The position numbers and the translations under genes are program-made. This document shows positions 30,921 through 61,172 of a DNA stretch of 64,000 nt, piece after piece (position 1 is the first letter of the stretch; every line of letters starts with the position of its first letter). A model generated the notes under the pieces. It saw nothing but the letters and a program-made list of their open reading frames with translations, did no database searches and was not told the origin of the DNA. Source of the DNA: Balneolaceae bacterium (lineage in GTDB: Bacteria; Bacteroidota; Rhodothermia; Balneolales; Balneolaceae); assembly GCA_034521495.1 (NCBI GenBank), contig JAXHMK010000010.1, forward strand, positions 310,001 through 374,000, in the 5' to 3' direction.

Positions 30921-31649
30921 CTAAAGAGAGTATTCGTAAAGCTTATTATAAATCGGTTTACACTGCTCCAGCAACGGTTCCAAATGTTCCGGAAACGGTT
31001 CTTTTTTGGGTTGATACGGCTTGAATCCTGTTGAATTATGGACATTCTGATACCAATATTTTGCCCAGCTTCCGTCTTCGGGACGGCTTCCTTTTTCCCA
31101 ACTTAGCATTGAATCATCAAACGGAATACCAATGGTTTGACAGAGTTTGGTTAGCATATCGCGAGGATTTTTCAGGACTTTTTCCGAGACAAGTACAATC
31201 GGTTTCTGGCCTGTTTTCAGGAGATATTCCAGAAGTTCCAGATGTTTGGCGTATCCCACATCTCTCATGGTGGGTTGACTCACTTTTTTGGCATACGATG
31301 GCAGCATCTCTTTGGGATCTCTTGTGAGAATAATGTTCACTGTGTGTTTCAAAAAAGACCAGTCAAGATTGACAAGATGATGCGTCATCTGCTTAAAGAA
31401 TACGATCGGCTTATCATGAGTACTCAACATCTTCTGAACAACTTTCTTGCCGTCGTTCTCCATCGTTTGTAAAATCTCCTCCGCCCCGGGATGATAATCA
31501 TCAGCATCGGTCTCCTTCAGGTAATGGGCGTAGAGAGGTTCATCAACTACTTTTGTATCTGATCTTTGAGCAAAGGAATACATCAAAGCTGTCGATATAT
31601 TTCTTGGTCCTGACCAGAGGCAGATTCTTTTTGTGATGCCTATTTTCAT
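30921..31649 (-). CDS. P-loop sulfotransferase-like protein
   Basis: This 242-residue protein starts with ITKRICLWSGPRNISTALM, a 5'-phosphosulfate-binding loop (SGPRNISTAL), and has a later ILTRDPKEMLPSYAKK segment matching the 3'-phosphate-binding region of sulfotransferases. The family is often encoded beside class IV aminotransferases, as here (that gene follows upstream after a 419-base repeat-rich gap). Whether it transfers sulfate or only shares the fold is not known. Confidence 0.75.
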   Translation of the reverse strand: MKIGITKRICLWSGPRNISTALMYSFAQRSDTKVVDEPLYAHYLKETDADDYHPGAEEILQTMENDGKKVVQKMLSTHDKPIVFFKQMTHHLVNLDWSFLKHTVNIILTRDPKEMLPSYAKKVSQPTMRDVGYAKHLELLEYLLKTGQKPIVLVSEKVLKNPRDMLTKLCQTIGIPFDDSMLSWEKGSRPEDGSWAKYWYQNVHNSTGFKPYQPKKEPFPEHLEPLLEQCKPIYNKLYEYSL

Positions 31650-31679
31650 GACTGTTATTATTTGTCAAGGAGGTACGGA

Positions 31680-31825
31680 AAAATCCCCCTTCGAAGGAGG
31701 AATGTGAAATGAGCGTTTAGCGAATGAACTCGGGGGATGTTTACTCCAGTGAACTTATGAAGATAATTCCTTTACACCCCTCCTTCCGTCGGCTGACGGA
31801 AGACTCCCCTCAAGGGGAGATTAAC
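31680..31825. repeat. Structured intergenic repeat (GGGGTGT family, copy 3)
   Basis: It shares GTGAAATGAGCGTTT...AGCGAATGAACTCGGGG with the copy at 57484. GGGGGATGT is followed by ACACCCCT, then the stem CCGTCGGCTGACGG and the outer stem TCCCCTCAAGGGGA. It ends directly at the stop codon of the aminotransferase remnant. Confidence 0.6.
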
Positions 31826-31862
31826 TCTTCACCTTCTTCACTTCCTCTTCTATCAAATCTTA
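31821..31862 (-). pseudogene. Remnant of a second aminotransferase 3' end
   Basis: Read leftward this stretch encodes DLIEEEVKKVKS and a stop, against DLIEEEVGKTK and a stop for the intact gene at 32069. Bases 31839-31861 and 32084-32106 are identical (23 bp). It looks like the end of a diverged allele left behind after recombination or insertion. Confidence 0.6.
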
Positions 31863-31867
31863 TACTC

Positions 31868-31913
31868 GTTCCGAAGGTCCTCCTTCAGAACGTCAGTATT
31901 GAAGCTCCGCTTC
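31868..31913. repeat. Double-hairpin repeat, copy B
   Basis: GTTCCGAAGG...CCTTCAGAAC then GAAGC/GCTTC; it is related to 20411-20457. The remainder up to 31984 contains no gene that I can support. Confidence 0.55.
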
Positions 31914-31984
31914 TATTCATTCATCATGTTGCCCAGTTTGATTTAAACCTTATATGCTATTACTAATAGCAGAGCTTCCGATCG

Positions 31985-32070
31985 AGTGAGGCTGTCTCTG
32001 TAAACACAAACATCCCTCTGGTTTTCTCAATGACTCTTGAGAAAACCTGTCTCCCTTCGAAAGGGAGATT
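31985..32070. repeat. Structured intergenic repeat (GGGGTGT family, copy 4, partial)
   Basis: The right half of the element is present: ACATCCCTCTG, stem GGTTTTCTCAA/TTGAGAAAACC, CTGTCTCCC and outer stem CCCTTCGAAAGGG. It ends at the aminotransferase stop codon, just as copy 3 ends at the remnant's stop codon. Confidence 0.55.
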
Positions 32071-32989
32071 ACTTTGTCTTCCCCACTTCCTCTTCTATCA
32101 AATCTTGGTACTTTCTTTGCAAATCTTTGGTCAGATCCCCGGTTTTTCCGTCACCGATCACTCGTCCGTCCACTTTTGTAACCGGCGTTAACCCACCAAA
32201 AGTGCCTGTGACGAAGGCTTCATCAGCTCCGTACACATCAAACAATGAGAAATTTTTCTGGCGACATGGAATTCCATGCTCTCCACAAATTCGAATCACA
32301 TTATGGCGGGTAATTCCATTCATGCAGTATTGGCCTGTGGATGTCCACACTTCTCCGTTTGTAATCATGAAAAAGTTTGTAGCGTTACATGTGGATACGA
32401 ATCCGTTCACATCAAGCATAAGTGCTTCATCAGCTCCGGCCTCCACTGCCTGGATGAGCGCCTGAACTTCATGGAGTTTGCTGTGGCAATTTAACCTTGG
32501 ATCTAAATAATCGGGAGAGCCTCTGCGAATGGTACTTGTAAACAGTGTGATCCCCCTCTTTTTTGAATCGGGTGAAGCTTTTTTATACTCAGGTATAATC
32601 ACAAGATTAGGCCCGCTAACCGTAAGTCTTGGGTCTTGTGAAGGAGTTTTTTTGATGCCCCGGGTTACCATAAACCGAACATGAACTCCATCTTTCATCT
32701 CATTGGCATCCAATGTATTCCATATTTTATTGGTCAACTCATTTTTGGAAAACGGAAGCTCCATTCCCACTGTTTTTGCGGCGGTCCAAAGCCGGTCTAA
32801 ATGCAGATCGAGAAAAACCAGAACCCCTTTGTGGAGCCTGCATGCTTCCCAGACACCATCTCCCACAAGATATCCGCTGTCGAAAACAGAAATTTTTGCG
32901 TCTTTTCGGGGTAATAGATCACCATTTACATAGATAATAATCTCTTCATTTCGGGGATCATCGAGGGCGTTGTGGGTTCCGTGTGCCAT
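32069..32989 (-). CDS. Class IV (branched-chain/D-amino acid type) aminotransferase
   Basis: This PLP fold-type IV transaminase (306 residues) has the substrate loop SGYLVGDGVWEACRL, the PLP lysine in LNCHSKLHEVQ and the phosphate-binding region MLDVNGFVSTCNATNFF. In most family members a glutamate stands where the threonine of VSTCNATNFF is; that substitution makes the substrate class unclear, so IlvE is not claimed. It transaminates branched-chain, D-amino acids or amines. Its 3' end is duplicated at 31821-31862. A sulfotransferase-like gene follows 419 bases downstream. Confidence 0.82.
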   Translation of the reverse strand: MAHGTHNALDDPRNEEIIIYVNGDLLPRKDAKISVFDSGYLVGDGVWEACRLHKGVLVFLDLHLDRLWTAAKTVGMELPFSKNELTNKIWNTLDANEMKDGVHVRFMVTRGIKKTPSQDPRLTVSGPNLVIIPEYKKASPDSKKRGITLFTSTIRRGSPDYLDPRLNCHSKLHEVQALIQAVEAGADEALMLDVNGFVSTCNATNFFMITNGEVWTSTGQYCMNGITRHNVIRICGEHGIPCRQKNFSLFDVYGADEAFVTGTFGGLTPVTKVDGRVIGDGKTGDLTKDLQRKYQDLIEEEVGKTK

Positions 32990-33469: not shown

Positions 33470-35194
33470 TTACTTATCTGATTCCTTTCGAAACAGGAAC
33501 AGTGCTTCCAAAACGATCCAAACAGCAAACGAGAGGATAATTGCACCAAAAATGAACAAAAGCATATTTCCTTCAGTGGATCCCAAACCCGACCAATCAA
33601 AAAATACCTGCTGAATCATCGCCCAAAGCGTCATAAATAGCAGAAACACAAGCGGTACAAGTGTGTAAATATAGTTTCTCCCCTTTCTCTTTAGCCATAT
33701 TGTTAAAATCATCAAACTGATAGCTGCCAGTAATTGATTGGACGTACCGAACAGAGGCCATAATAAATATCCGCCTGATCCAATTCCCCGTGGCCCTTCA
33801 GGAATTAGTACCAGGGCAGCACTCGAACCAACCGCAATAAAAGTTGAGAGGTGCATGTTAGTGAGCGGCTTTACATTGTACTCCTGACCAAGCTCATTTA
33901 TGATGTAGCGCATCAAACGCACGGAGGTATCAAGTGTGGTGGCAGCAAAACTGATCACAATAACAGCAATAATGGTTTCGGCAGCTTGTAATGGGATGTA
34001 AAGTGCTGTTGCCAGTTGAGCTGCTCCCTGAACAAAGATATTCAGCCCGGATGACCCGGCATTTTCAAAGGAGTGGTAGATTTCGAGGAACTCCCCGGTT
34101 GTATTGAAATAGGTAACTACGGCCACAATCGTAATCAAGGCAAGAGCTCCCTCACCCACCGCTCCAAGGTATCCTATAAACCTGGCATCTGTCTCTTTGT
34201 CTAACTGTTTGGCAGTGGTTCCGGAGGATACCAACCCGTGAAATCCTGATATAGCCCCGCACGCAATGGTAATAAAGAGCAGTGGAAACCAACTGACATC
34301 ATTTGCGGCCTCATTTGTAGTTGGGGCCGTGATCTCAGGGCTCATAATAAATAACCCTGAATAAAGAATAACAAGACCTATAATAAGTTGATGTGAATTA
34401 ATAAAATCTCTGGGCTGCAATAGTTTCCATACAGATAATGTAGAGGCGATATAAACATAAACCATTAATATAATAATCCACACCAGGAACGACATCTCTA
34501 CCCCATTCAGCCCGAATAAAATTGTATTCTCCTCACCGCCAAAATATCGAACTAAATCAATCTGAAGAGCAGGCACATAACTGGCAATAATGGCCGCAAA
34601 ATACATCACAAAAAGTACAACTATGGATGGAATAAGCATGCTGCCAGATTTTTTGTAGGAACGATAGCCGATCCATACGGCAAGCGGAATCTGAATAAAT
34701 ATGGAGAGTACACTTGCGGGAAAACTGATAAACAAGTTAGAGATGACCCATGCAAACACAGCGTTGACCATCAATACGAGGATAAGAATAATAAAGAGAA
34801 ACAGAATCTTCGCCCTGTGACCCACAACCTTATCAGCAATGATTCCAATGGATTGGCCCCTGTTTCGAACAGAAAGCACCATCACTCCAAAATCGTGAAC
34901 TCCGGCAGCAAAGAGAGTTCCTAAAACCACCCAGAGCATGGCGGGAAGCCAACCCCAATAGACGGCGATGGCAGGTCCCACGATTGGTGCAGCTCCTGCT
35001 ATGGAAGTAAAGTGATGCCCCCAAAGGATAAACTTGTTTGTTGGTACGTAATCCACACCATCTTCCAGGTTGTGTGCGGGTGTTACAAAATTGGGATCGA
35101 GTTGGTAGATCTTCTCAGCAAGAAATTTCGAATAGTATCGATATCCTACAAAAAAGAGAATAAGAGAAATTGCCGCAACAAGACTACCGGACAT
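33470..35194 (-). CDS. cstA: CstA-family carbon starvation protein/pyruvate transporter
   Basis: CstA imports pyruvate or peptides across the inner membrane. The 574-residue protein has about sixteen helices and the family signature near the N-terminus: DGVDYVPTNKFILWGHHFTS, AGAAPIVGPAIAVYWGWLPA and GVHDFGVMVLSVRNRG. Central GFHGLVSSGTTAKQL and late GTSNQLLAAISLMILT segments also match. I chose ATG at 35194; a TTG lies two codons upstream. Confidence 0.92.
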   Translation of the reverse strand: MSGSLVAAISLILFFVGYRYYSKFLAEKIYQLDPNFVTPAHNLEDGVDYVPTNKFILWGHHFTSIAGAAPIVGPAIAVYWGWLPAMLWVVLGTLFAAGVHDFGVMVLSVRNRGQSIGIIADKVVGHRAKILFLFIILILVLMVNAVFAWVISNLFISFPASVLSIFIQIPLAVWIGYRSYKKSGSMLIPSIVVLFVMYFAAIIASYVPALQIDLVRYFGGEENTILFGLNGVEMSFLVWIIILMVYVYIASTLSVWKLLQPRDFINSHQLIIGLVILYSGLFIMSPEITAPTTNEAANDVSWFPLLFITIACGAISGFHGLVSSGTTAKQLDKETDARFIGYLGAVGEGALALITIVAVVTYFNTTGEFLEIYHSFENAGSSGLNIFVQGAAQLATALYIPLQAAETIIAVIVISFAATTLDTSVRLMRYIINELGQEYNVKPLTNMHLSTFIAVGSSAALVLIPEGPRGIGSGGYLLWPLFGTSNQLLAAISLMILTIWLKRKGRNYIYTLVPLVFLLFMTLWAMIQQVFFDWSGLGSTEGNMLLFIFGAIILSFAVWIVLEALFLFRKESDK

Positions 35195-35395
35195 GAGCAA
35201 ACACCATTTTTTTACTTAAACCAACGGAATATCTAACATGGAAAGTAAAATGTCGAATTTTTTTCGATGAATAAAATCTTCTGGGGGTTGATGGTTCTTC
35301 TTATATACCGAATCGCAATTATCTACTCATGTTTACCCTTTAAATCATGTAGCTAATAGATCTCTGATGTGATAAACGGGTTTGTCATATTATAT

Positions 35396-35562: not shown

Positions 35563-37068
35563 TCATAACTCAACCGCTGTATGCCTATACATATTATTGG
35601 CTTTGGAATTCATCAAGCCAACGGTGTTAAATGGTTCAATCCTCTTCTTGATTTTTTTAACCTGTTTACTGATTTCTGAATCAGTCATTGAACCTGAGAA
35701 AAGGTCCTGAAATTCAATGTATGTCTCCTGAATAATCTGCTTAATTTCAGAATCTCCCGCACATAAAAAAGTATCCGGAATATCTCCTTTTAAACGTCGC
35801 TGTTCATAACGTATGGAAGCAATAAAATAGAGCATCGATGATGCTGTAAATAGTTCAAAATATTTTCTTGATCTATAACAAATCGAAACAAGTAAGTCAA
35901 TGACAGACAGTTCATTAAAGACTTTATCTTGATATTTATTTAAATCTTTAATTTTACTTTTATTATTCTCATTGTTTCTGAATATATTCAGGATTGTTTC
36001 TACACCACTCAAAGTATGAGCGATTCCTGTACTATGCAGGGGATCCACAAAACCGGCTGTATGAGGCAGTGCAATCCACCCATTTCCAAACAAACGTTCC
36101 AATCGACGCTGTAACCTTCCAGTTTTCAAAAATTGATTTGGTGGATCAGCGATAATTGCATTCTTGAAAAGTTTCTCAAGAGACGGATATTGGCTGATAA
36201 CTGAGTCCCATATTTTATTCGGATCTTTATCAAATCTCTTCTCCTGATCTGTTTCATCCAGCAGTATTCCGGCACTTAACCGATCATCATTAAATCGAAG
36301 CATCCAGATCCATCCCTCTTCAATTAAATGATGAAGTGCCGAATAGTCTGGATTATAGGGATAGTCTGATGTTTTAAATCCATTCGAAATCAAATAATCA
36401 GACCAATGATCTGCATTATTAAAGTGGGTGAAAATGGCCGAAGAATTCGTTTTAAATCCATCAGAACTACTCCGATTATTGAAAAATTTTGTTGAGAAAT
36501 TTGGACTGCCGGTTGCATCTATAATCCATTTGCATTCCATTTCGCTGATCTCTTGGTTCTTCATAAGAAAAACTGACCAGTTGTCGTATTTAGGATCTCT
36601 TGAAAGCTTTTGCACTTCAGTTTGATCCCAATACGAGACGCCTTTCTCTACGGCTTTTTTAACCAGAAAATGATCTACATCACTCCTCAGCCAGTTGGTA
36701 TCTGAATTCAAATCGTTTTCACTTGCTGCTACCAACAACTCTTTGCTATGATGTTCATCAGATTGAAACCTCTCTCCTTTTTTGTGGTGATAATAACTGA
36801 ATCCTCTTTTGAGTCCGCAAATAATTTCAGGATAATTATTTTGCCAATCACCATAACGAGAAAGGTTCTTCAGAAATGGCAAATCGTATTCATCTGCCAA
36901 ATCACGTAATATCATGTCTGCAATGGGAGTTGAAGATTCACCAATCGTAAATCGGGGGTGTTCCTTTTTTTCAATCAAGCGCACTTTGTAACCCATATTT
37001 GTCAGTGCCATAGCTGTGATTGATCCGGAGAAACCGGAACCTACTATCAAAAAATCAAACTTCTTCAT
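35563..37068 (-). CDS. FAD-dependent halogenase-like oxidoreductase
   Basis: This 501-residue flavoprotein matches the tryptophan-halogenase superfamily: the FAD-binding GSGFSGS (residues 10-16), GESSTP (43-48), CGLKRGFSYYHH with K87 at the place of the catalytic lysine of flavin-dependent halogenases, and the G-x-DPLHSTG segment in AGFVDPLHSTGIAH. The WxWxIP motif is altered to WIWMLRF, so halogenation is not assured; hydroxylation or oxidation is possible. Its start overlaps the stop of the radical SAM gene (ATGA), so the two are coupled. Confidence 0.78.
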   Translation of the reverse strand: MKKFDFLIVGSGFSGSITAMALTNMGYKVRLIEKKEHPRFTIGESSTPIADMILRDLADEYDLPFLKNLSRYGDWQNNYPEIICGLKRGFSYYHHKKGERFQSDEHHSKELLVAASENDLNSDTNWLRSDVDHFLVKKAVEKGVSYWDQTEVQKLSRDPKYDNWSVFLMKNQEISEMECKWIIDATGSPNFSTKFFNNRSSSDGFKTNSSAIFTHFNNADHWSDYLISNGFKTSDYPYNPDYSALHHLIEEGWIWMLRFNDDRLSAGILLDETDQEKRFDKDPNKIWDSVISQYPSLEKLFKNAIIADPPNQFLKTGRLQRRLERLFGNGWIALPHTAGFVDPLHSTGIAHTLSGVETILNIFRNNENNKSKIKDLNKYQDKVFNELSVIDLLVSICYRSRKYFELFTASSMLYFIASIRYEQRRLKGDIPDTFLCAGDSEIKQIIQETYIEFQDLFSGSMTDSEISKQVKKIKKRIEPFNTVGLMNSKANNMYRHTAVEL

Positions 37069-38018
37069 TTGTTGGTATTCTTAGAGTTACAGTGACACTC
37101 AATTTCAGGTAAAACCTTTTGTGAATGATTCATCTCATCAAGCCGTTCTTTTCGATCATGGAAACAATCCCCGCAATCAGAAAAGCGCTCCAGATCCCAC
37201 AAATCACAAAAAACTCGCCCTTTATTTAAACTCAACGCCTGATCAAATACCGTTTCCAGGGCCGAAAGTTTTGGCGGAACATACTCACCAGATGTTCTGA
37301 GCTGCTCCATAATTCCATTTCCATCGCGAACCGGGATAATTGAACAGGCGTTACAACCAGCATCAAACGCGTATTCAACTGATTTTAAAGTCCATTCAAT
37401 ATTTTCCTGTGGATCTGTCAAAAACGGCGGATTGAGCAAAATAAACGCTCTCACATCAATTTCCTCATCAATCAAAAATTGTGTCGCTTTATAAAAATCT
37501 TCCTTTGTAATCTGTTTATTAAGTTTTGGCAAAACCTCCGGATGGATTGTTTCAAGACCCATTGCAATCTCAAATGATCCATTCAGCATATCGCGAAATT
37601 CAGGAATGAACGGACCAATAAGTTTTGGATGATTTTCAACGATTACATGCTCATAATCAGTCAGAAGTTCTGCAATCTGTTTATACTCATCTCGGGGAAT
37701 CGCCTTTCCATCAAAAAAATTACCGCTATTGTAGAGTTTTACAACATCAGCCGAAGGTAAACGTTTTAATCCATATTCAACCTGATTTGGAATAGCTCCG
37801 GTTGGTGTAGGTTTATCTAACGTGTGGCGCCATAAGTCGCACATTACGCATTTAAATGGACACTCCCGATTTGTTAAGAAAATGGTATTCACATCATGAA
37901 TAACACCCTCTTTTTGCATCTCCTGTTCATGAATATAGAGGTATGGAATAGTTGGATCTACATCGAACTTTGATGGCCTGTATTCCTCAACGGTTTTATT
38001 GCTTATTTTGTGAATCAA
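37065..38018 (-). CDS. Radical SAM protein, RaSEA/Elp3-like
   Basis: The [4Fe-4S]-SAM motif is C53, C57, C60 in NRECPFKCVMCDLW (CX3CX2C). The following segments VVKLYNSGNFFDGKAIP, VIVENHP, IAMGLETIHPEVL and FILLNPPFLT resemble the family that includes the archaeosine enzyme RaSEA (TIGR01210). Extra cysteines at the C-terminus (DCGDCFHDR and ECHC) could bind another cluster or zinc. It lies directly upstream of the halogenase-like gene and is translationally coupled to it. The start at 38018 is TTG, without a clear ribosome site, so the N-terminus is uncertain. The product is unknown. Confidence 0.75.
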   Translation of the reverse strand: MIHKISNKTVEEYRPSKFDVDPTIPYLYIHEQEMQKEGVIHDVNTIFLTNRECPFKCVMCDLWRHTLDKPTPTGAIPNQVEYGLKRLPSADVVKLYNSGNFFDGKAIPRDEYKQIAELLTDYEHVIVENHPKLIGPFIPEFRDMLNGSFEIAMGLETIHPEVLPKLNKQITKEDFYKATQFLIDEEIDVRAFILLNPPFLTDPQENIEWTLKSVEYAFDAGCNACSIIPVRDGNGIMEQLRTSGEYVPPKLSALETVFDQALSLNKGRVFCDLWDLERFSDCGDCFHDRKERLDEMNHSQKVLPEIECHCNSKNTNK

Positions 38019-38161: not shown

Positions 38162-39622
38162 GTGATCATTCTTAAGCGTGCTCTATTCTTGATCTTGTTA
38201 CTACTGATTACAACCTTTTCCAACCTTTATGGACAATTATCAGTAGAAACCTCTGGAATCTTCAGCACAGAAAGTAATACACCTTTTTGGTTTCAATCGA
38301 ACAGAAATGGTGTTTATTCAAGCGAAGGCAGCCAGTTCTTAACCCGGTTACAATACCATAATTCGTACGATGAGCTCAACAATTTTAAAATTCTCTATGG
38401 TACAAGTGTAATTGGGCGTCCGGGAAGTCAATCCACACTCTCATTGAACCAGGGATATCTTAAAATTCGTGGATTCGGACTTGAATTTGCCGGTGGCCGG
38501 TTTATCGATCCCTCCCCTCTTTTCTATGATAATGAGCTTGGCATGGGATCTCTCGGAGTCAGTACCAATGCATCTCCAATTCCAAAATTAAAACTTGGGT
38601 TGCGTGATTGGTTGTCCGTTCCTTTTACAAACGATTTTCTTCAGGTTTATGGATATGTAACGCATGGCTGGCTTGGAAGTGCCCGCTTTGGAGATAATGT
38701 ACTTCTGCATGAAAAGGCCGGATATTTTAAGCTTGGAGGAGATCGGTCTGTGAACGTATATGGCGGGCTGGTACACTATGTAATATGGGGTGGCAGCACT
38801 CCTGAAGAAGGAGATATTCCAAATGGTTTTTCTGATTTTATTGACATTTTCTTTGCTCAAAGTGGTGATGAATCTACCCCCGGCAGCGAACAGGCCTATG
38901 TATTGGGAAACCAATTGGGAACCTGGTCATTTGGGTCTTTGATTGATCTTTCGGGAACAGATATTTCAATTTACCTGCAATCTCCCATCGAAACCAACTA
39001 CGATCTGAAGCTCAAAAATATGAGTGATATTTTGACCGGTATTTCTTTTGATTTTGGAGAAAATGCGACTCTTCCTGTTGATAAATTTGTATACGAATAT
39101 TTGTATACAAAAAATCAGAGCGGCCCCAGAAGAGTAAATCCTGATGCAGATCCCGATGTTGATCGTTTCAGGGGAAACCAAAATTACTATAATCACGAGA
39201 TTTATGAATCAGGTTGGGCGTACCAGTATCGGACGATTGGGAATCCGCTTTTTAAAGCTGATGAGGATGCACTCGGAATCTTAAACAATCGAATTATCGC
39301 ACATCATGTGGGGATTGAATCAAGCGTTAACCAAGTAGATTTATTCGGAAAAATCACCTACAGTAAAAATTTTGGAAAACGATGCGATAACAGAAATCCG
39401 GATATTGGTGAGGGAGATCTTTTCGGAATTCAATGCAATCGTGAAGTAACAATCGATCCGGGAACCCCGATTACTCAATGGTCATTATTAGCCGGAACTG
39501 AATTCCCGCTTCCTATAATTCCTGATCAAAATATCCGATTTAGAGTAGAAACCGCCCTTGACAGCGGACGACTTTTTGGAGATCAATTTGGCATTTTGAC
39601 AAGCATTCGATGGACGCCTTAA
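38162..39622 (+). CDS. Capsule assembly Wzi-family outer membrane protein
   Basis: The 486-residue protein begins with a signal peptide (about residues 1-24) and continues as alternating amphipathic strands with aromatic girdles (PFWFQSNRNGVYSS, FEFAGGRF-like repeats, DWLSVPFTNDF), as expected for an 18-stranded Wzi-type barrel. Wzi binds capsular polysaccharide at the cell surface. It starts with GTG at 38162. It stands alone on the plus strand between the radical SAM gene and the AsnB-like gene, with no capsule genes nearby. Confidence 0.8.
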   Translation: MIILKRALFLILLLLITTFSNLYGQLSVETSGIFSTESNTPFWFQSNRNGVYSSEGSQFLTRLQYHNSYDELNNFKILYGTSVIGRPGSQSTLSLNQGYLKIRGFGLEFAGGRFIDPSPLFYDNELGMGSLGVSTNASPIPKLKLGLRDWLSVPFTNDFLQVYGYVTHGWLGSARFGDNVLLHEKAGYFKLGGDRSVNVYGGLVHYVIWGGSTPEEGDIPNGFSDFIDIFFAQSGDESTPGSEQAYVLGNQLGTWSFGSLIDLSGTDISIYLQSPIETNYDLKLKNMSDILTGISFDFGENATLPVDKFVYEYLYTKNQSGPRRVNPDADPDVDRFRGNQNYYNHEIYESGWAYQYRTIGNPLFKADEDALGILNNRIIAHHVGIESSVNQVDLFGKITYSKNFGKRCDNRNPDIGEGDLFGIQCNREVTIDPGTPITQWSLLAGTEFPLPIIPDQNIRFRVETALDSGRLFGDQFGILTSIRWTP

Positions 39623-39708: not shown

Positions 39709-41037
39709 TTATCGATAAAGCGATCTAAAATAATCCCGATACACCATCTCGTCATCAGGAAAAATCTTCTCAAAATCATCCTTTCCTACAGAACCATGCT
39801 GCATTCTTCGTTTTGGAAAGACCGGCATGTCTAAACCTGTAACAGCCTTCACTCCACGTTGAACGATCTCTCCTTTTAGAGCATATAGCTCTTCGTGATT
39901 CCAGTCGGTTAACTGTATAAATGGAATACCTTCAGAAACTTCAATTACGTTTGGCAGTGAATAAGGGCTGAATCCTTCAAATCCAAAATGAGCGGCCGTT
40001 GCATAGGTTCGAACACTTCCGCGGCTATGCCCTCCGCTATAGGTAAGTGAATGCTTAATTTTGTCAACACCCCACCCTTCGTGATACAGCAGTGGATTGT
40101 TCAGGACACTTCGAATCGTTAATTCAGGATTTTCTTCAATCGGATAGGATTTTAAATTTTCATCTCCGCCATCTCCATCAACCAGATATTTCCAGTTAGG
40201 GTATTTCTTTCTAATCAATTTACACAGAGCCAATGCAGTTGTTGCGGCTTCAACATCTCGTTGTTTGTAATCCTCAATCACACGAATAGTCTCTTTGTAA
40301 TCCAGATCCGAAGACTCTCCCTCCATCACTTCAAGAAACATGCTTAAATCCAGTGAGTCCAGGAATTTATACGCTTGCGAGGCATCCGGTCCATGATTGA
40401 TTGATAATGTAAATGCTTTTAACCTGGCAGGCGACTCTCCCCTTTTTAGCAGCAGATCATACAGGGTCAGAAACACCGAACCGCTGTCAATTCCACCAGA
40501 AAACAGAACACCAATGGGTTCATCTTTTGGAATTGAATCCAGCCATTTTTCTAACTCATTAGCCATCGCACCTACATAGGCTTCCCCTATTTTATCCAGA
40601 TCTGCATTGAGTTGATTTCGTTTTGGCGTAAAATATCGTTTGTAATCCGGATTCGGATCCGGGCAGCCAATTACATCTAACTTAGTAACATAATGAGCCG
40701 GTACCATTCGGGTATAATCCGGACGAAATTGATGATGTAAACCTAACTCCTTCAGATAGTTATAGATATCATCGATTCTTTCAGCTACAACTAATAACGG
40801 GCCCTCCACCTGTTTGGCCATAAAATAGCGCATGGGCCGGCCGATTGAGCGTGCCATCCGAACCTGTTGTCCCTCTTTTGTAACAATCGCAAAACTACCG
40901 TCAATTTTACGAACTTCTTCAGGATCTCCATTGGCCACAATTTTCTCAGCCTCTTCATGAGACATATTGAAAATTTGGTTTTTTTCCGGTTCAATCAGAT
41001 TGGCAAAATCGTGGAGTTTCTGTACTACTTTAGGCAT
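39709..41037 (-). CDS. Asparagine synthetase-like ligase without glutaminase cysteine
   Basis: The C-terminal PP-loop synthetase domain is clear: GVLFSGGIDSGSVFL (SGGIDS at 180-185), VDGDGGDENL and a C-terminal RMQHGS segment. The N-terminal domain (about 1-130) keeps remnants of the glutaminase fold (DGSFAIV, SIGRPMRYF) but starts MPKVVQ, so the Cys2 nucleophile of asparagine synthetase B is missing. It would therefore use ammonia or another amine and may form an amide or lactam through an AMP-ester. It starts with ATG at 41037. The Wzi-like gene converges on it and the RES toxin gene lies upstream. The product is unknown. Confidence 0.72.
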   Translation of the reverse strand: MPKVVQKLHDFANLIEPEKNQIFNMSHEEAEKIVANGDPEEVRKIDGSFAIVTKEGQQVRMARSIGRPMRYFMAKQVEGPLLVVAERIDDIYNYLKELGLHHQFRPDYTRMVPAHYVTKLDVIGCPDPNPDYKRYFTPKRNQLNADLDKIGEAYVGAMANELEKWLDSIPKDEPIGVLFSGGIDSGSVFLTLYDLLLKRGESPARLKAFTLSINHGPDASQAYKFLDSLDLSMFLEVMEGESSDLDYKETIRVIEDYKQRDVEAATTALALCKLIRKKYPNWKYLVDGDGGDENLKSYPIEENPELTIRSVLNNPLLYHEGWGVDKIKHSLTYSGGHSRGSVRTYATAAHFGFEGFSPYSLPNVIEVSEGIPFIQLTDWNHEELYALKGEIVQRGVKAVTGLDMPVFPKRRMQHGSVGKDDFEKIFPDDEMVYRDYFRSLYR

Positions 41038-41190: not shown

Positions 41191-41655
41191 TTAGTTTCTT
41201 TTGAGAAGCCTTGTGTCAAAACAAAACGGCCTGATCTCTTTCACCTCAATTTTTTCCATATCAGAGTGCAAAGGATTTATCAAAATATTACTTTCTGTTT
41301 GCACCAAAACAGAGGGTACTTTAAGCATTACGCTCATTGTAGAATTAATCCATTTTGCACCAATCTCCGCCAGTTTATTTGGTGCTGGATAATTTCGCCA
41401 ATCGCCCGGAAGCTCTTCCCTTTGTATGATTTCAGGTTTTAGATTATCAGGTACCGATAGAATTAACAGATTCAAATCATCCGGAATTGCCGAAACCGGG
41501 GCATGTACAAGTGTTTCTAATGCAGCAAGAGATTCACTTTGAGAAGTATAAAGAACTGGTGTTCCTTTAAAATTCCATCTCCCTCCATATATTCTGGATC
41601 CTTCTCCACTTAAATCTTCAATATATCTCTCCCTGGCAATCCTGTAGAGATCCAT
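41191..41655 (-). CDS. RES-domain toxin
   Basis: RES toxins degrade NAD+. The 154-residue protein shows the family core: YRIARERY, GGRWNFKGTPVLYTS, ESLAALETLVH, with R, E and S at the places that name the domain. It starts with ATG overlapping the stop of the antitoxin gene by one base (TGATG), the usual RES-Xre coupling. Confidence 0.88.
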   Translation of the reverse strand: MDLYRIARERYIEDLSGEGSRIYGGRWNFKGTPVLYTSQSESLAALETLVHAPVSAIPDDLNLLILSVPDNLKPEIIQREELPGDWRNYPAPNKLAEIGAKWINSTMSVMLKVPSVLVQTESNILINPLHSDMEKIEVKEIRPFCFDTRLLKRN

Positions 41656-42083
41656 CAGGCATATACACCTTGTTCCAACCTGCCAAGCTCATCAGTAACC
41701 ATGCGGGCTCCAAAACTTGTATCGAGCAGACTGAATGGAGTTTGCCCTGCTAAAGCTACAGAAGGAGATTGAAGCCATTGCTGAAACTGTTTCCGATTGT
41801 TAAAAACATCGATCCCTTTTCCAAGAACTTCAGCAACGAGTAAGGCGTGTTCTGAAACTTCCGGTGGAAGAAGATCATCGTCCTTATATCGTTGGAGGGT
41901 TCGAAGCGATACAGGCAGAAGTTCAGAGAACTGTTTTAGGGATAAGGACCCGATTTCAGCGAGTTTAATCAATGATTTTTTTGAAATACCCTGCCGTGCC
42001 AGTTCTACCATTGTCATTGGCGAGGATGCTACGTAAGCAACTGCGGCCTCTCTTAGTATGTTATTTAATGAGTCTGTACTCAT
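41655..42083 (-). CDS. Xre/MbcA/ParS-family antitoxin (DUF2384)
   Basis: The 142-residue antitoxin has an N-terminal HTH-like region (ISKKSLIKLAEIGSLSLKQF, SLRTLQRY) and a C-terminal toxin-binding domain of the MbcA/ParS type with FSLLDTSFGARMVTDELGRLEQGVYA at its end. It precedes and overlaps the RES toxin gene. Such antitoxins repress their own promoter, here presumably within 42084-42165. Confidence 0.88.
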   Translation of the reverse strand: MSTDSLNNILREAAVAYVASSPMTMVELARQGISKKSLIKLAEIGSLSLKQFSELLPVSLRTLQRYKDDDLLPPEVSEHALLVAEVLGKGIDVFNNRKQFQQWLQSPSVALAGQTPFSLLDTSFGARMVTDELGRLEQGVYA

Positions 42084-51179: not shown

Positions 51180-51881
51180 TTATTGTGATAAAGTAACAGG
51201 TTCTGCTTCTGCAGTTTTTTTCTTTTCCTGCCACTCATCCCATAAAGTTTTTACAATCAATGCAATAGGTGCAACGATAAAAAGTGCATAAAACGGGGCA
51301 TAAACAGCTTCGCCCAGCCGGAAAAAGAATTCGACGAATGCAATCAAAAAAGCTACGATATTTTGCCCCATCTTAGTATTTAGTGTCGTCTTGGGGTCAG
51401 TAATCATAAACAATACAAAAAGCTGGTACATAGGGCCTGTGAGAGGAGCTATTTCTGTAAGAAAAAGATCACCTGTTATTAAACTTCTAATCCAGGCAAA
51501 GCCAATAAATGAAAGTACATATGTAATACAAATATTGGCAAGATTCACTTTAGAGATCACAAATAAGCCTACGATCCATATAGCCAGCATCGCCCACATA
51601 TTATTTCCCCATTGAATGCTGAGCACAGCCATACTATCTGAGGCAATTAACAACATCACCACAATTCCAAAATTTGTGGGATTAAAGAGGTGTGATCCCC
51701 TGAAACGAATAACATATTTGGATGCAATAGATATCGCTGCACATAATGCGAAGGGCCAAATCAGGGGTGACCGAACCAATATTCCTGCGCTATTCCCTGA
51801 TATATATGCACTTGACAAGTCTCTCCATCTTCCGGTTACTATTTTATGAAATACAGCTTCAGTAACCATGGCTGCTGCCAA
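51180..51881 (-). CDS. RnfD/NqrB-like membrane protein
   Basis: The 233-residue reading has about six helices and motifs of RnfD-type subunits of ion-translocating electron transport complexes: LFNPTNFGIVVMLLI, LTGPMYQLFVLFMITDPKTT. It is open upstream to 52022 without ATG, GTG or TTG before the TTG at 51881; the upstream codons encode homologous-looking sequence (NISFPKRYTGPILIT and FGVLDGWEKF), so the true N-terminus lies near 52000 and would need an unusual start such as ATT. The extended frame is the same as that of the upstream CRTAC1 gene, separated by a single TGA. No other rnf or nqr gene is present. Confidence 0.7.
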   Translation of the reverse strand: MAAAMVTEAVFHKIVTGRWRDLSSAYISGNSAGILVRSPLIWPFALCAAISIASKYVIRFRGSHLFNPTNFGIVVMLLIASDSMAVLSIQWGNNMWAMLAIWIVGLFVISKVNLANICITYVLSFIGFAWIRSLITGDLFLTEIAPLTGPMYQLFVLFMITDPKTTLNTKMGQNIVAFLIAFVEFFFRLGEAVYAPFYALFIVAPIALIVKTLWDEWQEKKKTAEAEPVTLSQ

Positions 51882-52022
51882 TGCTGCAGCAAATTTTTCC
51901 CAACCATCAAGAACTCCAAAAGAGATATGAGCAGCTACAACAATAGCCGTGATTAATATCGGTCCGGTGTATCGTTTTGGAAAGGAAATATTTTTGAATA
52001 AAATCTGTAACTGCTGTAACGC

Positions 52023-53828
52023 TCAAGGAGCCTCCGAAGCTTCTTTGATTTTATGATTCATATTTAACTCAGGATTGTTTATCGTTTGAACAATACCTGA
52101 AGGCCAGCGAATCTCCGCTTTTTCAACTTCCTGCACTTCACCGACTCCAAAATGAATCGTTTTCTGGCTTTGCGAGCTAAATGCTTCACCGGCCGTTACA
52201 CTTTTCCTGGTTTTTTTCCCGTCCCAGTGTAGTATAACAATCGCCCCGACGGCACTTCTGTTGCTTTTTGTTCCTTCCAGGTCGAACCCAATCCAATTAT
52301 GGCTGGGATCTGTGTAGTTTCTGTAAACTTTTACGGGTTGATCTTGATTAGCTACAATTAAATCGAGTGATCCATTTCCGAAAAAATCGGCATAAGCAAC
52401 GGAACGACTGTCTGATATGAGTGCGCCACCCACGTTGTTAGCAACTTCCCGGAATCTGCCGGCACCATCATTTAACCAAATTTTATTGGCCTGGTAACCC
52501 GAAAACGTTCGGTTTTCCATATCGGGCCAGTTTTCAGCATCCATAATTATTGAACGATTCCCTCCCACTACTTTAGAATAATCGTACCAGTAGTCGGTAT
52601 CGGGTTCTGCAGATACATAACCGTTGGCTACGTACAGATCGAGATTTCCATCGTTGTTAAAATCCAGGAATTGTCCGCTGTAGCCCCACTGCCCTATCTC
52701 CACACCAAGATTACTGGCTAAATTTCTGTAGGATGGAGTATTATCAGCTTCGTTGTTTCTGGGAACCCATAAATTATTTCCCTGCATCAATACGCCTGCT
52801 TCAGAAATATTCGTGATATAGATGGCGTGTTTTCCCTGGTTCAACACATCGCCAAAGGAAACGCTCATCCCGCTTTTTGGGGTAAATCCTATACCTGATT
52901 CCTCACCAACATTTGTAAACCCTTCTCCATCATTGTTGATATAGACCTCATCCACTCCGTAATCATTTGCCAAGACCAGATCCTGGTATCCAGAGTCGTT
53001 AATATCTGTGGCAGATGATGCAAGTGTCCACCGCCGGGTTTCTCGTAATCCAACGTTCTCTGCTACATCCACAAACGTGCCGTCTCCCTGGTTCTCAAAA
53101 AGGTAATTAATTCCCCCGTTTGTGGCATATTCATAACTGTCCGGCATCATCAGTGTACTTTCAAGATCAAATAGGTTTACATCCTCTTTAAAATATCCAC
53201 CCAGAAAAAGATCGAGGAGGCCATCGTTGTTATAATCGAGCCATGTTGCTGTATTTGCATTTACATGTTCAGGAAAACCGGCATTAGCCACTTTTGTAAA
53301 GGATTCCCCTGCATTGTTTTTAAACAGTACAGGTTTGCCCCATCGATACAGGAAAAGATCTTCATATCCATCATTGTCAAAATCGGCCCAAACGGAACCC
53401 ATCGAGGCTCCAACCTCTATTTTATTGAGATCTGCAACACCAAGTTCTCCTGCTACATCGATAAATGTACCGTTGCCAAAGTTTTTGTAGAGCGCGTTCT
53501 GAGTTCCAAATTCACTGTTAGTCAGGTAGAAATCGTAGAGTCCGTCTTCATTAAAATCAACAACAGATACAGAGGCTCCTACAGAAGCAATCTGAGGTGC
53601 AATGTGACTGAGTTTTTCATCTACAACGGGTCGTTGATGCACAAAATCAATACCCAGATCATCAGTTACATCATCCAGGAAAAAACCGTATCTCTCGATT
53701 ATTTCAGAACGATTTTCGAACTTCTCTGAATTGATAAACTCATCGTACTTTTTCATTCCGAATGGAATCGACACGAGCATCAGGAATAACAGTACAACGA
53801 CTGTTTTTTTAAGGTGTTCTTTCTTCAT
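52023..53828 (-). CDS. CRTAC1-family FG-GAP/UnbV protein
   Basis: The 601-residue protein has an N-terminal signal-anchor (about 8-25), then six or more calcium-binding FG-GAP/VCBS loops (DFNEDGLYDFYL, DFDNDGYEDLFL, DYNNDGLLDLFL, DFNNDGNLDLYV, DFFGNGSLDLIV) forming a propeller, and a C-terminal ASPIC/UnbV domain (HFGVGEVQEVEKAEIRWPSG). Such proteins are exported; roles in adhesion or polymer binding are assumed only. It is the third of three UnbV proteins in a leftward block and directly abuts the RnfD-like gene. Confidence 0.87.
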   Translation of the reverse strand: MKKEHLKKTVVVLLFLMLVSIPFGMKKYDEFINSEKFENRSEIIERYGFFLDDVTDDLGIDFVHQRPVVDEKLSHIAPQIASVGASVSVVDFNEDGLYDFYLTNSEFGTQNALYKNFGNGTFIDVAGELGVADLNKIEVGASMGSVWADFDNDGYEDLFLYRWGKPVLFKNNAGESFTKVANAGFPEHVNANTATWLDYNNDGLLDLFLGGYFKEDVNLFDLESTLMMPDSYEYATNGGINYLFENQGDGTFVDVAENVGLRETRRWTLASSATDINDSGYQDLVLANDYGVDEVYINNDGEGFTNVGEESGIGFTPKSGMSVSFGDVLNQGKHAIYITNISEAGVLMQGNNLWVPRNNEADNTPSYRNLASNLGVEIGQWGYSGQFLDFNNDGNLDLYVANGYVSAEPDTDYWYDYSKVVGGNRSIIMDAENWPDMENRTFSGYQANKIWLNDGAGRFREVANNVGGALISDSRSVAYADFFGNGSLDLIVANQDQPVKVYRNYTDPSHNWIGFDLEGTKSNRSAVGAIVILHWDGKKTRKSVTAGEAFSSQSQKTIHFGVGEVQEVEKAEIRWPSGIVQTINNPELNMNHKIKEASEAP

Positions 53829-54038
53829 ACCAACTGATTTATTTAAACATCAATTCAAGGACCCATATTTGTTAAGCCATCAACATCGGCTGTCGAGTCC
53901 ATCTCGCCTGTCCCGAACCATCGGGAGCTGCCGAATTTTACAAGCTCACGAACCAGTACGATTCGGCAGACGAAAAAACCAATCGTCAGCCGAATTGAGG
54001 CATCAATACAATATAAAAATTTGCCCTTCCAACTTCTT

Positions 54039-57000
54039 CTATTCATCAAAGAGTAATGCCGACCTGAAGGAACGGGGAGTTATATAGCGTGTATGATAAT
54101 TGACCCAGTCTTCTTTATGTTTTTGATAAACAGGATCATCCCATAAAATGCCGCCGTTGCCATAATCATAATCGGCCTGACCATGATAGGGTAATGGTAA
54201 AACTGTTGCCGAGGCCTCTGTATTATAATCTCCATCTTTTTCCCAACCATCAGACACAAATACAAAGCTTCGCTGATAACCTTTTTTAGGAGATTCTGGA
54301 GCTTTGAATTCGAGTTCAATTTCATCACCCGCATTCATAATAACATATCGGTCATCCACCTCTGCCAGTAATTCGCTCACATCACCAAATCGTGTATGGA
54401 AGCCCTCCAGATCTCTCCAACGTTGCGTTGTGCTGGAAATTTCGTTGTAATCTGCAAGCATGGGGGACGTTGAATCGGCTCGCGACCATTTTGAAAATCC
54501 CCGATACTGCAATTCCATTTTCAAAGGTTCAAGAGCAGTTTCTTCAATTTCTGATTGATCCAGTTTTTGAGCCTGGAAAATACCGTCCCAGTAAATTTCT
54601 GAAGTGGTTGTCAATCGTATTTTCCGATCACTTTGATTAGAAAATACACCTTCCAGATCGAGTAAAATAGTCTTCGATTTTCCAGCCGGAATTCCATAAT
54701 TCTCATGCAACAGTTTCCACTCGCCCGATTTATTCAAATACTCAACCTGTAACCCTTTTGGAGCCTCTATACTGCCCTGGCTCAATGCCAAATTGATGGA
54801 GCTGTCGGTTGGGCGTAACCACCCATTTAGGACTAACAAATCAGCGTCTTGTTCACTCAAAGAGATCTCAATAGAATGCTCTTGAGCCAAGCCCTGGTAC
54901 TTGGTTTTTTCGAATGGCTGAATGTAATTTTTGTCAATGGCTGATGTTTCTTCAGTCAAATTATTTCCATTCTCATCCATAACATTTTCCACCGGCTCAA
55001 GGCTGCTCATTAATTTTGTTGACAGATCCGGTGCGGGAAATACAAATCGTTCATCAACAAAAATCTCAGTGTTTTCGGGATGATCGACTGCCATCAGGCG
55101 AACATGATCAAAGAAATGAGATTCCCAAAGCTCGGCCGTAATTCTGAGTTTATATACACCATTATCAGCTTGGATCATCTCCGACGGAATCTTCACACGA
55201 TCCAGCGTTTGAACCACACCCGCCGTCTCCTGGGCGTTGATTCGAAGCCCTAATGGTGATCTCCATAAAATATCGGTGACAAACTGCATCTCTTCCCCAT
55301 CGTGCGAAAACAACCAGGGGCATGACCCTTTCAGGATCTGTTCGTTAAAAATAGTTGATCCCATTCCCAACTCAGCAAATTCTGCTTGTACTGACCCGTT
55401 CGGCCAGATGATTCTCAACATCTGAGCCTCCTCATATTCCCCCAAACCAAAATGTACAATGGGTGATGAAATCAGCTGTTTTTGATAGAGCAGGCCGGAA
55501 CGGACTTCCATCTCGCCACCAATTCCGAATGAATTGATTCGCTGATCGCCGGTTGTGCCTGAAGCTTGTGCACGAATGGATCGGGCAAAATATTCTTTGG
55601 TTGTCTCAGTCTTCAGATAATATGGTGTCCCATCTTCAGCAATCCCGAGCAGATCCAGTTTTTCATCTCCTTCTACATCAAACACAGAGTAAATTTTGCC
55701 GGGCAGATCTTTTTCCAGTTTTACAGGATTCCGCTGCTCATCGCCCAGCCAAACATGAGTTTGTTCGTCTGTTGAAAGAACCAGGTCGATTGATCCGTTA
55801 TTATCCAGATCGGCAGTAAACAGGTTAGGCGATGTAAGATTGGCAAGTCCACTTTCAAAATAATTGATGGATTGCCACTCACCGGTTTCATACGAAAAGT
55901 TGAACGTTGAGAAATTTCCACTTTCATCCACAGAAATAATCTCAAACCGGGCATTTGCATCCATATCAGCTACGGCAATGGCAGATTGATTTTCGGCTAA
56001 CTGAGTGCCCTCATCAAACTCCCCACCTCTTTGATTTGCATAGATTATAACAGCCCCCTCCTCATTCAAAACAGTCGCTTCCGGGGTTCCCTCTCCATCC
56101 AAATCAGCCCAAAGAAATTCTTTAATACTCTGATTTTCACTGAATGGAACTATTTGACTGAATGTGCCATCCCCATTATTTCGAAGCACAAACGATGAAC
56201 CATTTGTTGAAGAGAGAAGCAGATCCAGGTCGCCATCCAGCTCTACATCAAATGACCAAACGCCGGTATAACTTCCATCGGTTATATTTTCCGTTAGCCC
56301 GAGTGTTGAAGTGACATCAGAAAATGTTTGATCTTCGTTTAATTGATAAAGCCTAAAACCATTTGATCCTACAGCTGCCAGATCATTTCTAAAATCATAG
56401 TTAAAATCGATCTCCTGAACGGCATTTCCTGATAGTTTTGAAACAGTTTCGCCCGGAAACTCCAGTTCAGTTTGTTCATTAATCACAACAGATCCATCGG
56501 CAACCGTAATTGGGAACGGCGGAGAATCACCCGACAGTGTGACTCCCTTCACCCAGACCGCTTCAGCGGGTGGAACATCCAGGGGCTGACGGGTTAACTG
56601 CATGTCAATATCCGGGGGTGCTGCTTTAACATCAGGCTGATCAAGATTGATAAATTCTGTAATTAAAAAACCTACCTGAGTCGGAGAAAGACGAACTTCG
56701 GAAAGGTCTGCCTGGAAACGAGGCTGTGATTCCAAACCGCTTCGGAGAAAAGAGAGCTCAAGTGAAAGATCTGAAAAATTTTGTTGTTCCAGCATCTCAA
56801 ATACCAAATCTAACTGCTCCCGGTTTTGCTCATTCCAATTGTCTGACAGATCTCTCAATCGGTTTAAATATTCCTCAGCTTGATCCGCATTCTCTTCCCG
56901 GATAGCAATTCGGACCAGTTCCAGCAATACCACTTGATTGTTCTTGTTCTTTTCAAGGAGTGAGCGAAGAGTTTCCTTGATCTCTTCAGCATTTCCGGTG

Positions 57001-57473: not shown

Positions 57474-57483
57474 GATAAAAAAT

Positions 57484-57665
57484 TATATGTGTCTCCCCTC
57501 TTGAGAGGGGAAAGTGAAATGAGCGTTTGCCAAAGGCACCCTTCAGGGTAGCGAATGAACTCGGGGTGTGTTTCTTAGATCAATCGAACACAGTTAACAC
57601 ACCTCTGATGACTACGCTAAACGCTTCGTCATCGGTCTCCTCTCAAGAGGAGAGGTCATCTCATT
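57484..57665. repeat. Structured intergenic repeat (GGGGTGT family, copy 5)
   Basis: In order: outer stem CCCCTCTTGAGAGGGG, GTGAAATGAGCGTTT, GCGAATGAACTCGGGGTGTGTT, AACACACCTCTG, stem GATGAC...GTCATC around TAAACGC, then CTCCTCTCAAGAGGAG. It occupies most of the 254-base gap between two UnbV genes. Confidence 0.65.
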
Positions 57666-57727
57666 TATTCAAAAAATTACTTCGCATAGATTCACTTTAA
57701 AAATACAATTCTGATCAACAAAACGAT

Positions 57728-61075: not shown

Positions 61076-61172
61076 ATAGAATCTGTGGATACCAAAGCCT
61101 AACTCCAATTAAAATGTTCATAGAAGATAGTATAGAGCCGCGTACCCTTCAATTCTAATTGTGAGCTTAATA

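Follow-up and report, generated by a model that had tools for sequence, protein, structure and literature searches.

A gene cassette of an amide ligase, a radical SAM protein and a halogenase-like flavoprotein, conserved together in Balneolaceae and other bacterial lineages, and its candidate extracytoplasmic partner

Beta-lactam synthetase, whose substrate is N-carboxyethyl-arginine, belongs to the clavam cluster, and the flavoproteins LodB, GoxB and QhpG and the radical S-adenosylmethionine (SAM) protein QhpD mature amine-oxidase subunits. We report here on three genes, coding for an asparagine-synthase-type amide ligase (AS), a radical SAM protein (rSAM) and a halogenase-like flavin adenine dinucleotide (FAD) enzyme, hereafter the flavoprotein. 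They lie in a stretch of 64,000 nucleotides from a Balneolaceae bacterium (GenBank assembly GCA_034521495.1, contig JAXHMK010000010.1, positions 310,001 to 374,000 of the forward strand), called the window below. In archaeosine synthesis, ArcS joins lysine to preQ0 and RaSEA, which pairs with ArcS, converts the adduct (PMC11298593). Concerning flavin-dependent halogenases, the K87A variant of PltM is described as inactive (PMC6424973), and WxWxIP is among the motifs given for these enzymes (PMC10377541).

Compared to these systems, AS has the fold and the PP-loop of beta-lactam synthetase and asparagine synthetase B (AsnB), but is 17% identical and lacks about 40 N-terminal residues, hence the cysteine of the N-terminal nucleophile (Ntn) glutaminase. 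The radical SAM core and a nearly full-length profile match are common to rSAM and RaSEA, whereas rSAM is bacterial, patchy in its distribution, reaches about half of the cut-off score, and is paired with an amide ligase and a flavoenzyme. The flavoprotein shares the FAD fold and the catalytic Lys87 with PltM and tetracycline 7-halogenase; unlike them, it has GWx[W/Y]xLxF in place of WxWxIP, and is accompanied by AS and rSAM in the genomes tested. The logic of a radical SAM plus a flavin enzyme is also that of QhpD/QhpG, LodB and GoxB, and the flavoprotein family is related to theirs, but scores are far below the cut-offs and QhpD is not among the NCBIfam matches of rSAM.

The original prediction, made on the window alone, had singled out rSAM and the flavoprotein as a coupled pair, their genes overlapping by ATGA. 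Both open reading frames (ORFs) and the overlap were found on the minus strand (Table 1), and the two genes do belong together, but the unit consists of three enzymes, the third, AS, having been overlooked. In a survey of 395 genomes of the phylum (thresholds E ≤ 1e-10 for rSAM, 1e-20 for AS and 1e-30 for the flavoprotein), rSAM was present in 24 genomes, AS in the identical 24, and the flavoprotein in 23, all among those 24. In the odd genome, G336, the contig ends right after rSAM (L007, 2420 bases, match to 2415), and no flavoprotein was detected elsewhere in the genome at E ≤ 1e-15. The order AS-rSAM-flavoprotein, with the three genes adjacent on one strand, was observed in 22 of the 24 genomes, the exceptions being G336 and G123, where the flavoprotein is on another contig. 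The gap between rSAM and the flavoprotein is below 400 bases in 22/24 genomes; between AS and rSAM it is below 400 bases in 19/24, and 1.7-2.0 kb in the remaining five. Distances in the trees of the three genes correlate at 0.92-0.94 over 23 genomes, a value reached by 0 of 999 permutations, species descent not being separated in this test. In the genus of the window genome, the cassette is present in 8 of the 11 genomes sampled.

The association extends beyond the phylum. A set of 30 rSAM loci spans Balneolaceae, other Bacteroidetes, Planctomycetaceae, Phycisphaerae, Pyrinomonadaceae and Verrucomicrobiia; it overlaps with the survey of 395 genomes (L043, for example, is G203), and the counts are not additive. 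AS recurred upstream of rSAM in 24 of the 31 stretches compared, window included, and in five Phycisphaerae loci (L048, L049, L050, L052 and L053) these genes directly follow one another or overlap. All 12 rSAM genomes chosen from the 30 loci contained AS, seven of them on a different contig from rSAM. Of 9 genomes where the flavoprotein had previously been unseen or doubtful, 8 proved to have it, the single miss being G336; with no more than 31% identity, the G406 match may represent a different relative of the halogenases. Among 149 Planctomycetota genomes, 5 had AS (E ≤ 1e-40), rSAM was found in all 4 of those newly tested, and in one (G543) the flavoprotein lies beside AS. A complete set may also be unlinked: in three Planctomycetaceae (L046, L047 and L051) rSAM stands apart, with AS and the flavoprotein elsewhere in the genome.

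Non-conservation of the pair, which the original prediction had named as the outcome that would speak against it, is not what we observed, the pair being conserved within the phylum and in other phyla. Linkage and distribution strongly support the view that the three enzymes act together. The original prediction knew of no described pathway with this pair, and our literature searches, judged partly by title or by the start of the abstract, likewise found no description of the AS/rSAM/flavoprotein combination. The locus appears to be a small orphan biosynthetic cassette, in which all three superfamilies are known and the combination is undescribed as far as these searches showed.

Table 1. Features of the window discussed in the text, numbered from its first nucleotide
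Feature	Position	Strand	Basis or remark
Flavoprotein: halogenase-like FAD enzyme, 501 amino acids, ATG start, relative of PltM and tetracycline 7-halogenase	35563-37068	-	PF04820
W253-F259 (WIWMLRF) of the flavoprotein, altered WxWxIP	36292-36312	-	
Lys87 codon of the flavoprotein	36808-36810	-	Aligned with catalytic Lys87 of PltM (alignment gap-free to here)
ATGA overlap, rSAM stop and flavoprotein start	37065-37068	-	ORF coordinates; intergenic gap listed as -1
rSAM: radical SAM protein, RaSEA-like, 317 amino acids, TTG start	37065-38018	-	PF04055; TIGR01210 below cut-off
C53-x3-C57-x2-C60 motif of rSAM	37839-37862	-	50/50 sequences
Wzi-type gene between AS and rSAM	38162-39622	+ (opposite strand)	
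AS: asparagine-synthase-type, presumably AMP-forming amide ligase, 442 amino acids, truncated N-terminal domain	39709-41037	-	PF00733, model
PP-loop S180-G-G-I-D-S185 of AS	40483-40500	-	SGGIDS in 100% of 47 sequences
NqrB/RnfD-like membrane protein next to the partner, may or may not belong to the system	51180-51881	-	PF03116
CRTAC1/UnbV-type FG-GAP protein, 601 amino acids, next to the partner, may or may not belong to the system	52023-53828	-	PF13517, PF07593
Candidate partner: tetratricopeptide repeats, FG-GAP, UnbV_ASPIC and C-terminal beta-rich domain, 1144 amino acids	54039-57473	-	Domain scan, distribution
Second FG-GAP/UnbV protein, 1126 amino acids	57728-61108	-	Domain scan

We propose that AS, rSAM and the flavoprotein form one small cytosolic three-step pathway, whose product would be a small molecule with an amide and with a halogen or hydroxyl group. 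A tetratricopeptide repeat (TPR)/UnbV protein, the candidate partner of Table 1, would perhaps handle this molecule outside the cytoplasm. We give this reading a probability of about 0.5. Joint occurrence and usual adjacency in one order come directly from the comparison of genomes; the order of steps, the substrate and the product are what we infer. AS would adenylate a carboxylate at its PP-loop and join it to an amine or to ammonia, and could not use glutamine by way of an Ntn cysteine, because that N-terminal part is missing. rSAM would abstract a hydrogen from the amide-linked part, and then rearrange or cleave it, as RaSEA converts preQ0-lysine; by analogy with archaeosine, where ArcS acts and then RaSEA, the substrate of rSAM may be an amino acid that AS has linked through an amide. 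The flavoprotein, by means of its invariant Lys87, would halogenate an electron-rich ring, or may hydroxylate it, given the lost proline of WxWxIP. Outside the cytoplasm, the TPR/UnbV protein would then use or handle the small product.

No conserved small ORF recognisable as a precursor peptide was found beside the cassette (25-110 amino acids, within 2 kb, 2454 ORFs), and the 12 largest ORF groups listed, examined as candidate precursors of a ribosomally synthesised and modified peptide, fall within neighbouring genes or on their antisense strand, judging by position. No shared frame was seen in the six frames of five rSAM-flavoprotein gaps. No nonribosomal peptide synthetase or polyketide synthase was recognised among the recurrent neighbours, which were inspected by eye and not all scanned against Pfam. 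The lack of a recognised small ORF and of such synthetases or synthases favours a small metabolite of amino-acid type over a peptide or a polyketide.

For the analysis of the individual enzymes, alignments of 50 rSAM, 43 flavoprotein and 47 AS sequences were used, obtained from 101, 88 and 94 matching loci by removal of duplicates and short pieces. AS combines the PP-loop with a PF00733 match (44.8 bits, cut-off 21), as expected of an asparagine synthase C-domain ligase, and 154 of its 442 positions are at least 90% conserved. Its AlphaFold model (pLDDT confidence 83.5, residues 294-332 uncertain) best matches beta-lactam synthetase 1mc1 (Z 24.7, root mean square deviation 3.4 A over 365 residues, 17% identity). 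Other structural matches are AsnB (Z 22.9), human asparagine synthetase (Z 22.8) and carbapenam synthetase (Z 21.1); beta-lactam synthetase and AsnB are not clearly separated by these values, since the beta-lactam synthetase entries alone span Z 23.4-24.7. All matches start at target residues 31-42 (37-42 in human asparagine synthetase, AsnB and beta-lactam synthetase, and about 41 in the last), so that AS lacks the N-terminal strand that carries the glutaminase nucleophile. Its open frame has 447 codons for the 442 used, which leaves at most five further ones. Against TIGR01536, AS scored 43.7 of 267 bits, and neither the cysteine nucleophile nor a complete domain of an Ntn glutaminase was found. 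As modelled, AS is folded like beta-lactam synthetase, without the glutaminase nucleophile.

rSAM has both the CxxxCxxC motif and the PF04055 match (32.2 bits, cut-off 29.5) of the radical SAM superfamily. Other invariant residues are K94-L-Y-N97, F101-F-D103, E128, H130-P131, R190, R231, D272 and W274. Conservation of Arg14 (92%) and Pro25 (90%) among the 50 sequences makes the TTG start plausible. The likeness to RaSEA seen in the original prediction holds (TIGR01210, E = 5e-30 over residues 34-313), yet with 104.8 bits, or 104.5 bits in a second scan, for a cut-off of 212.15 the protein is no equivalog of RaSEA by this profile. The extra C-terminal cysteines noticed there are indeed present in most relatives, but they are not universal: all four are jointly lost in L012, L014, L017, L046, L047, L051, L049, L050, L052, L053 and L054. 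Being absent together in several lineages, these cysteines are not essential. No solved relative of rSAM was found in the PDB, the single sequence giving no match up to E 10 and the family profile a best value of 0.057, to an unrelated entry.

The halogenase-like nature of the flavoprotein stood up to analysis. The match to Trp_halogenase PF04820 is 59.2 bits (cut-off 21), and the best solved relatives are PltM and tetracycline 7-halogenase, with E of about 6e-39 for the single sequence (PltM 5.6e-39), and 5e-76 and 2e-70, respectively, for a profile of 27 family sequences, positions 3-423 of which are covered. NCBIfam ranked the halogenase CmlS first and QhpG second (E 3e-21), and also listed LodB (3e-15) and GoxB (3e-13), all far under cut-off. 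Lys87, already pointed out as the lysine of halogenases, is kept in 43/43 sequences. The altered WxWxIP motif, noted before in the window copy, turned out to be family-wide: W253 is present in 43/43 sequences, W255 in 38/43 (Tyr in 5) and Leu257 in 42/43, and residue 258 is Arg in 30, His in 10, Gly in 2 and Pro in 1. With Lys87 invariant and WxWxIP changed, the family has retained the lysine and not the motif listed for halogenases.

The candidate partner, a TPR/UnbV protein distributed almost like the cassette, was not part of the original prediction. In the window it lies 13 kb from AS. Proteins of this family are 1.1-1.2 thousand amino acids long, and are probably secreted or placed outside the cytoplasm, judging by N-termini that look lipoprotein-like by eye. 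The FG-GAP_3 and UnbV_ASPIC domains are common to the partner and the CRTAC1/UnbV family, to which the partner adds N-terminal TPR and a C-terminal domain that has no overall solved match. Its 601-residue neighbour matches the human CRTAC1 structure 9etn (E 3e-22), and such a CRTAC1-type protein is often next to the partner among the loci compared. The membrane protein of the block, which we take to be UnbU-like, scored 26.0 bits with PF03116 in the window copy, just under the cut-off of 27.7, and 39.1 bits in L134. The four-gene block (51180-61108) recurs in L171, L172, L173, L177, L178, L179 and L180, and in the cassette-negative L190.

The distribution of the partner was assessed in the 395 genomes with the last 435 residues of the protein from G007 (L134) as query (E ≤ 1e-15). 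The domain was present in 41 genomes, comprising 24/24 with the cassette and 17/371 without. By genus, it was found in 11/11 cassette genera versus 6/159 others (Fisher 2e-13, a test that ignores descent). In Planctomycetota, 47/149 genomes gave a match, including all 5 with AS (Fisher 0.0027, descent again ignored), and these 5 are among the six top partner scores of the 149. Above 310 bits, 7 genomes remain, 5 of them with AS (Fisher 4e-8, the threshold having been picked after the scores were seen). The partner adjoins the cassette in four Phycisphaerae loci (L049, L050, L052 and L053) and in G007.

We also compared 77 partner domains in a midpoint-rooted tree, 38 from cassette-positive genomes (G119 twice) and 39 from negative ones. 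Not included were the fragments from G395 and G406, the G403 sequence, which has a stop within its match, the partial sequence of L053, L257 as a duplicate, the second copy in each of G254 and G336, as well as 20 of the 42 matching cassette-negative Planctomycetota. The 38 positives fell on one side together with 18 negatives, and the 21 other negatives, all Planctomycetota, lay outside. A search for cassette-specific residues was not fruitful: 7 positions differ from the 21 outer negatives, but the 18 nearer negatives share all but the terminal Phe, so that these positions mark descent rather than the cassette.

The C-terminal domain was modelled with a pLDDT of 90.5. A second structural look returned galactose-binding-like jelly rolls over residues ~119-270 (Z ~8-10), which may be merely a common arrangement, and reading a function from this domain was dropped, as no overall solved match suggested an activity. 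CylK, a beta-propeller alkylating enzyme partnered with a halogenase (PMC8916777), was tried as a model for a halogenase and propeller pair; PDB sequence searches with the partner and with the 601-residue neighbour did not return it, and CylK stays an analogy only.

Several observations weigh against the proposed pathway and its partner. On the side of the enzymes, no flavoprotein was found within 20 kb around AS in the Planctomycetota G454, G475 and G493, where it was not searched for elsewhere in the genome, and Ile257 and Pro258 of WxWxIP are each present in 1/43 sequences only. The latter result would be accounted for if the flavoprotein were a monooxygenase or an oxidase that had retained the lysine without being a halogenase. 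This would change one step and is compatible with the pathway, and we consider it to have slightly less than an even chance. It agrees with the loss of Pro258 and the Ile257 to Leu change, each in 42/43 sequences, and with a His, in 35/43, before the invariant Ser346, at a position where tryptophan halogenases presumably have Glu. It agrees less well with a relationship that is nearest to PltM and tetracycline 7-halogenase over profile positions 3-423, and with an invariant Lys87, required in PltM according to the mutant described (PMC6424973).

As concerns the partner, 17 genomes carry it without the cassette, it lies within 40 kb of AS/rSAM on the same contig in only 5/24 genomes (G000, G007, G022, G108 and G203), and its tree correlates with those of the cassette at only 0.48-0.59. 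Among 11 further cassette genomes, of unstated assembly quality, 9 gave a partner match, two of which (G395 and G406) are fragments only, and none was found in G399 and G402. Its C-terminal domain has no overall match in the PDB (query TM score at most 0.20 in the 50 entries listed). Alternatively, the three enzymes would form a pathway in which the TPR/UnbV protein takes no part, its presence only marking lineages or a life style shared with the cassette, an explanation that we find rather unlikely, although it accounts for the loose linkage, the weaker tree correlation and the presence of some homologue in 47/149 Planctomycetota. A SusC-type gene directly after the partner block, following the membrane-protein gene in eight loci (L169, L171-L173 and L177-L180; SusC/SusD Pfam domains checked in L171 only), also points to another context. 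Against a mere marker stands the contrast of 24/24 with 17/371 genomes, which persists at the level of genera. Moreover, of the three sampled genomes of the window's genus that have no cassette, only G171 has the partner, the two others lacking both, and the association recurs in Planctomycetota.

Another explanation is protein maturation: before its export, a protein would be modified by the three enzymes, for example the TPR/UnbV protein or the CRTAC1-like protein next to it. The presence of QhpG, LodB and GoxB among the NCBIfam relatives of the flavoprotein, far below cut-off, is in line with it, as are the nearly shared distribution of the TPR/UnbV protein and the five cases where it adjoins the cassette (G007, L049, L050, L052 and L053). 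However, CmlS heads the same NCBIfam list, the nearest solved relatives are PltM and tetracycline 7-halogenase, and 17 of 371 genomes have the TPR/UnbV protein and no cassette. In addition, of the residues of its C-terminal domain that are at least 92% conserved in cassette-positive genomes, only the terminal Phe drops to 60% or less in the nearest negatives; no modified site is therefore apparent in this domain, the only part compared, which counts against maturation. Taken together, we judge maturation improbable.

Modification of tRNA or another RNA by a RaSEA-like enzyme, one of the options of the original prediction, gained no support beyond the TIGR01210 match itself, and is very improbable given a score of half the cut-off, a patchy distribution (24/395 genomes, absence from 3/11 of the same genus), an amide ligase and a halogenase relative as partners, and neighbourhoods of the cassette in which inspection by eye revealed neither TGT nor ArcS, no search having been aimed at them.

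A mobile element as carrier was examined and rejected: searches with AS against 72,556 plasmid records (E ≤ 1e-20) and against 50,697 phage records (E ≤ 1e-10) were both negative. rSAM gave two weak, partial plasmid matches, both in Streptomyces (28.9% and 28.5% identity). The first is a distant relative on plasmid pFRL5 of Streptomyces sp. F8 (L269 8791-9906, 28.9% over 62% of the query), located among cytochrome P450, serine hydroxymethyltransferase, glycosyltransferase and carbamoyltransferase genes that possibly form a natural-product cluster; the annotation of the surrounding 18.6 kb includes neither AS nor a halogenase. Other neighbours in the window were mostly recognised by eye, only part of them having been scanned against domain libraries. 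The Wzi-type family is found near rSAM in 8/31 stretches compared. Two small adjacent genes at 41191-42083, which by their appearance we take to be an Xre/RES-type toxin-antitoxin pair, have relatives near the cassette in L030 and L043. On the other side, a sulfotransferase-domain gene (PF19798) adjoins an aminotransferase class IV gene (30921-32989), and a CstA transporter gene (33470-35200) lies between these and the cassette.

Returning to the three-enzyme pathway, its product might be an undescribed, amino-acid-derived diffusible cofactor or signal, with the TPR/UnbV protein as its user or receptor outside the cytoplasm, together with the CRTAC1-type and NqrB/RnfD-like proteins; this more specific proposal we regard as doubtful. 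The names UnbV and UnbU come from enediyne clusters. A literature search combining them with enediyne returned nothing. An enediyne cassette is named E3/E4/E5/E/E10 in one account (PMC5181780). If true, the proposal would provide a first function for the UnbV/UnbU families beyond enediyne clusters. More generally, three well-studied superfamilies are linked here by a near all-or-nothing distribution in several phyla, and the set is so small that expression of three genes is enough to look for its product. To our knowledge, the co-distribution with the cassette is also the first genetic handle on the large uncharacterised TPR/UnbV_ASPIC family.

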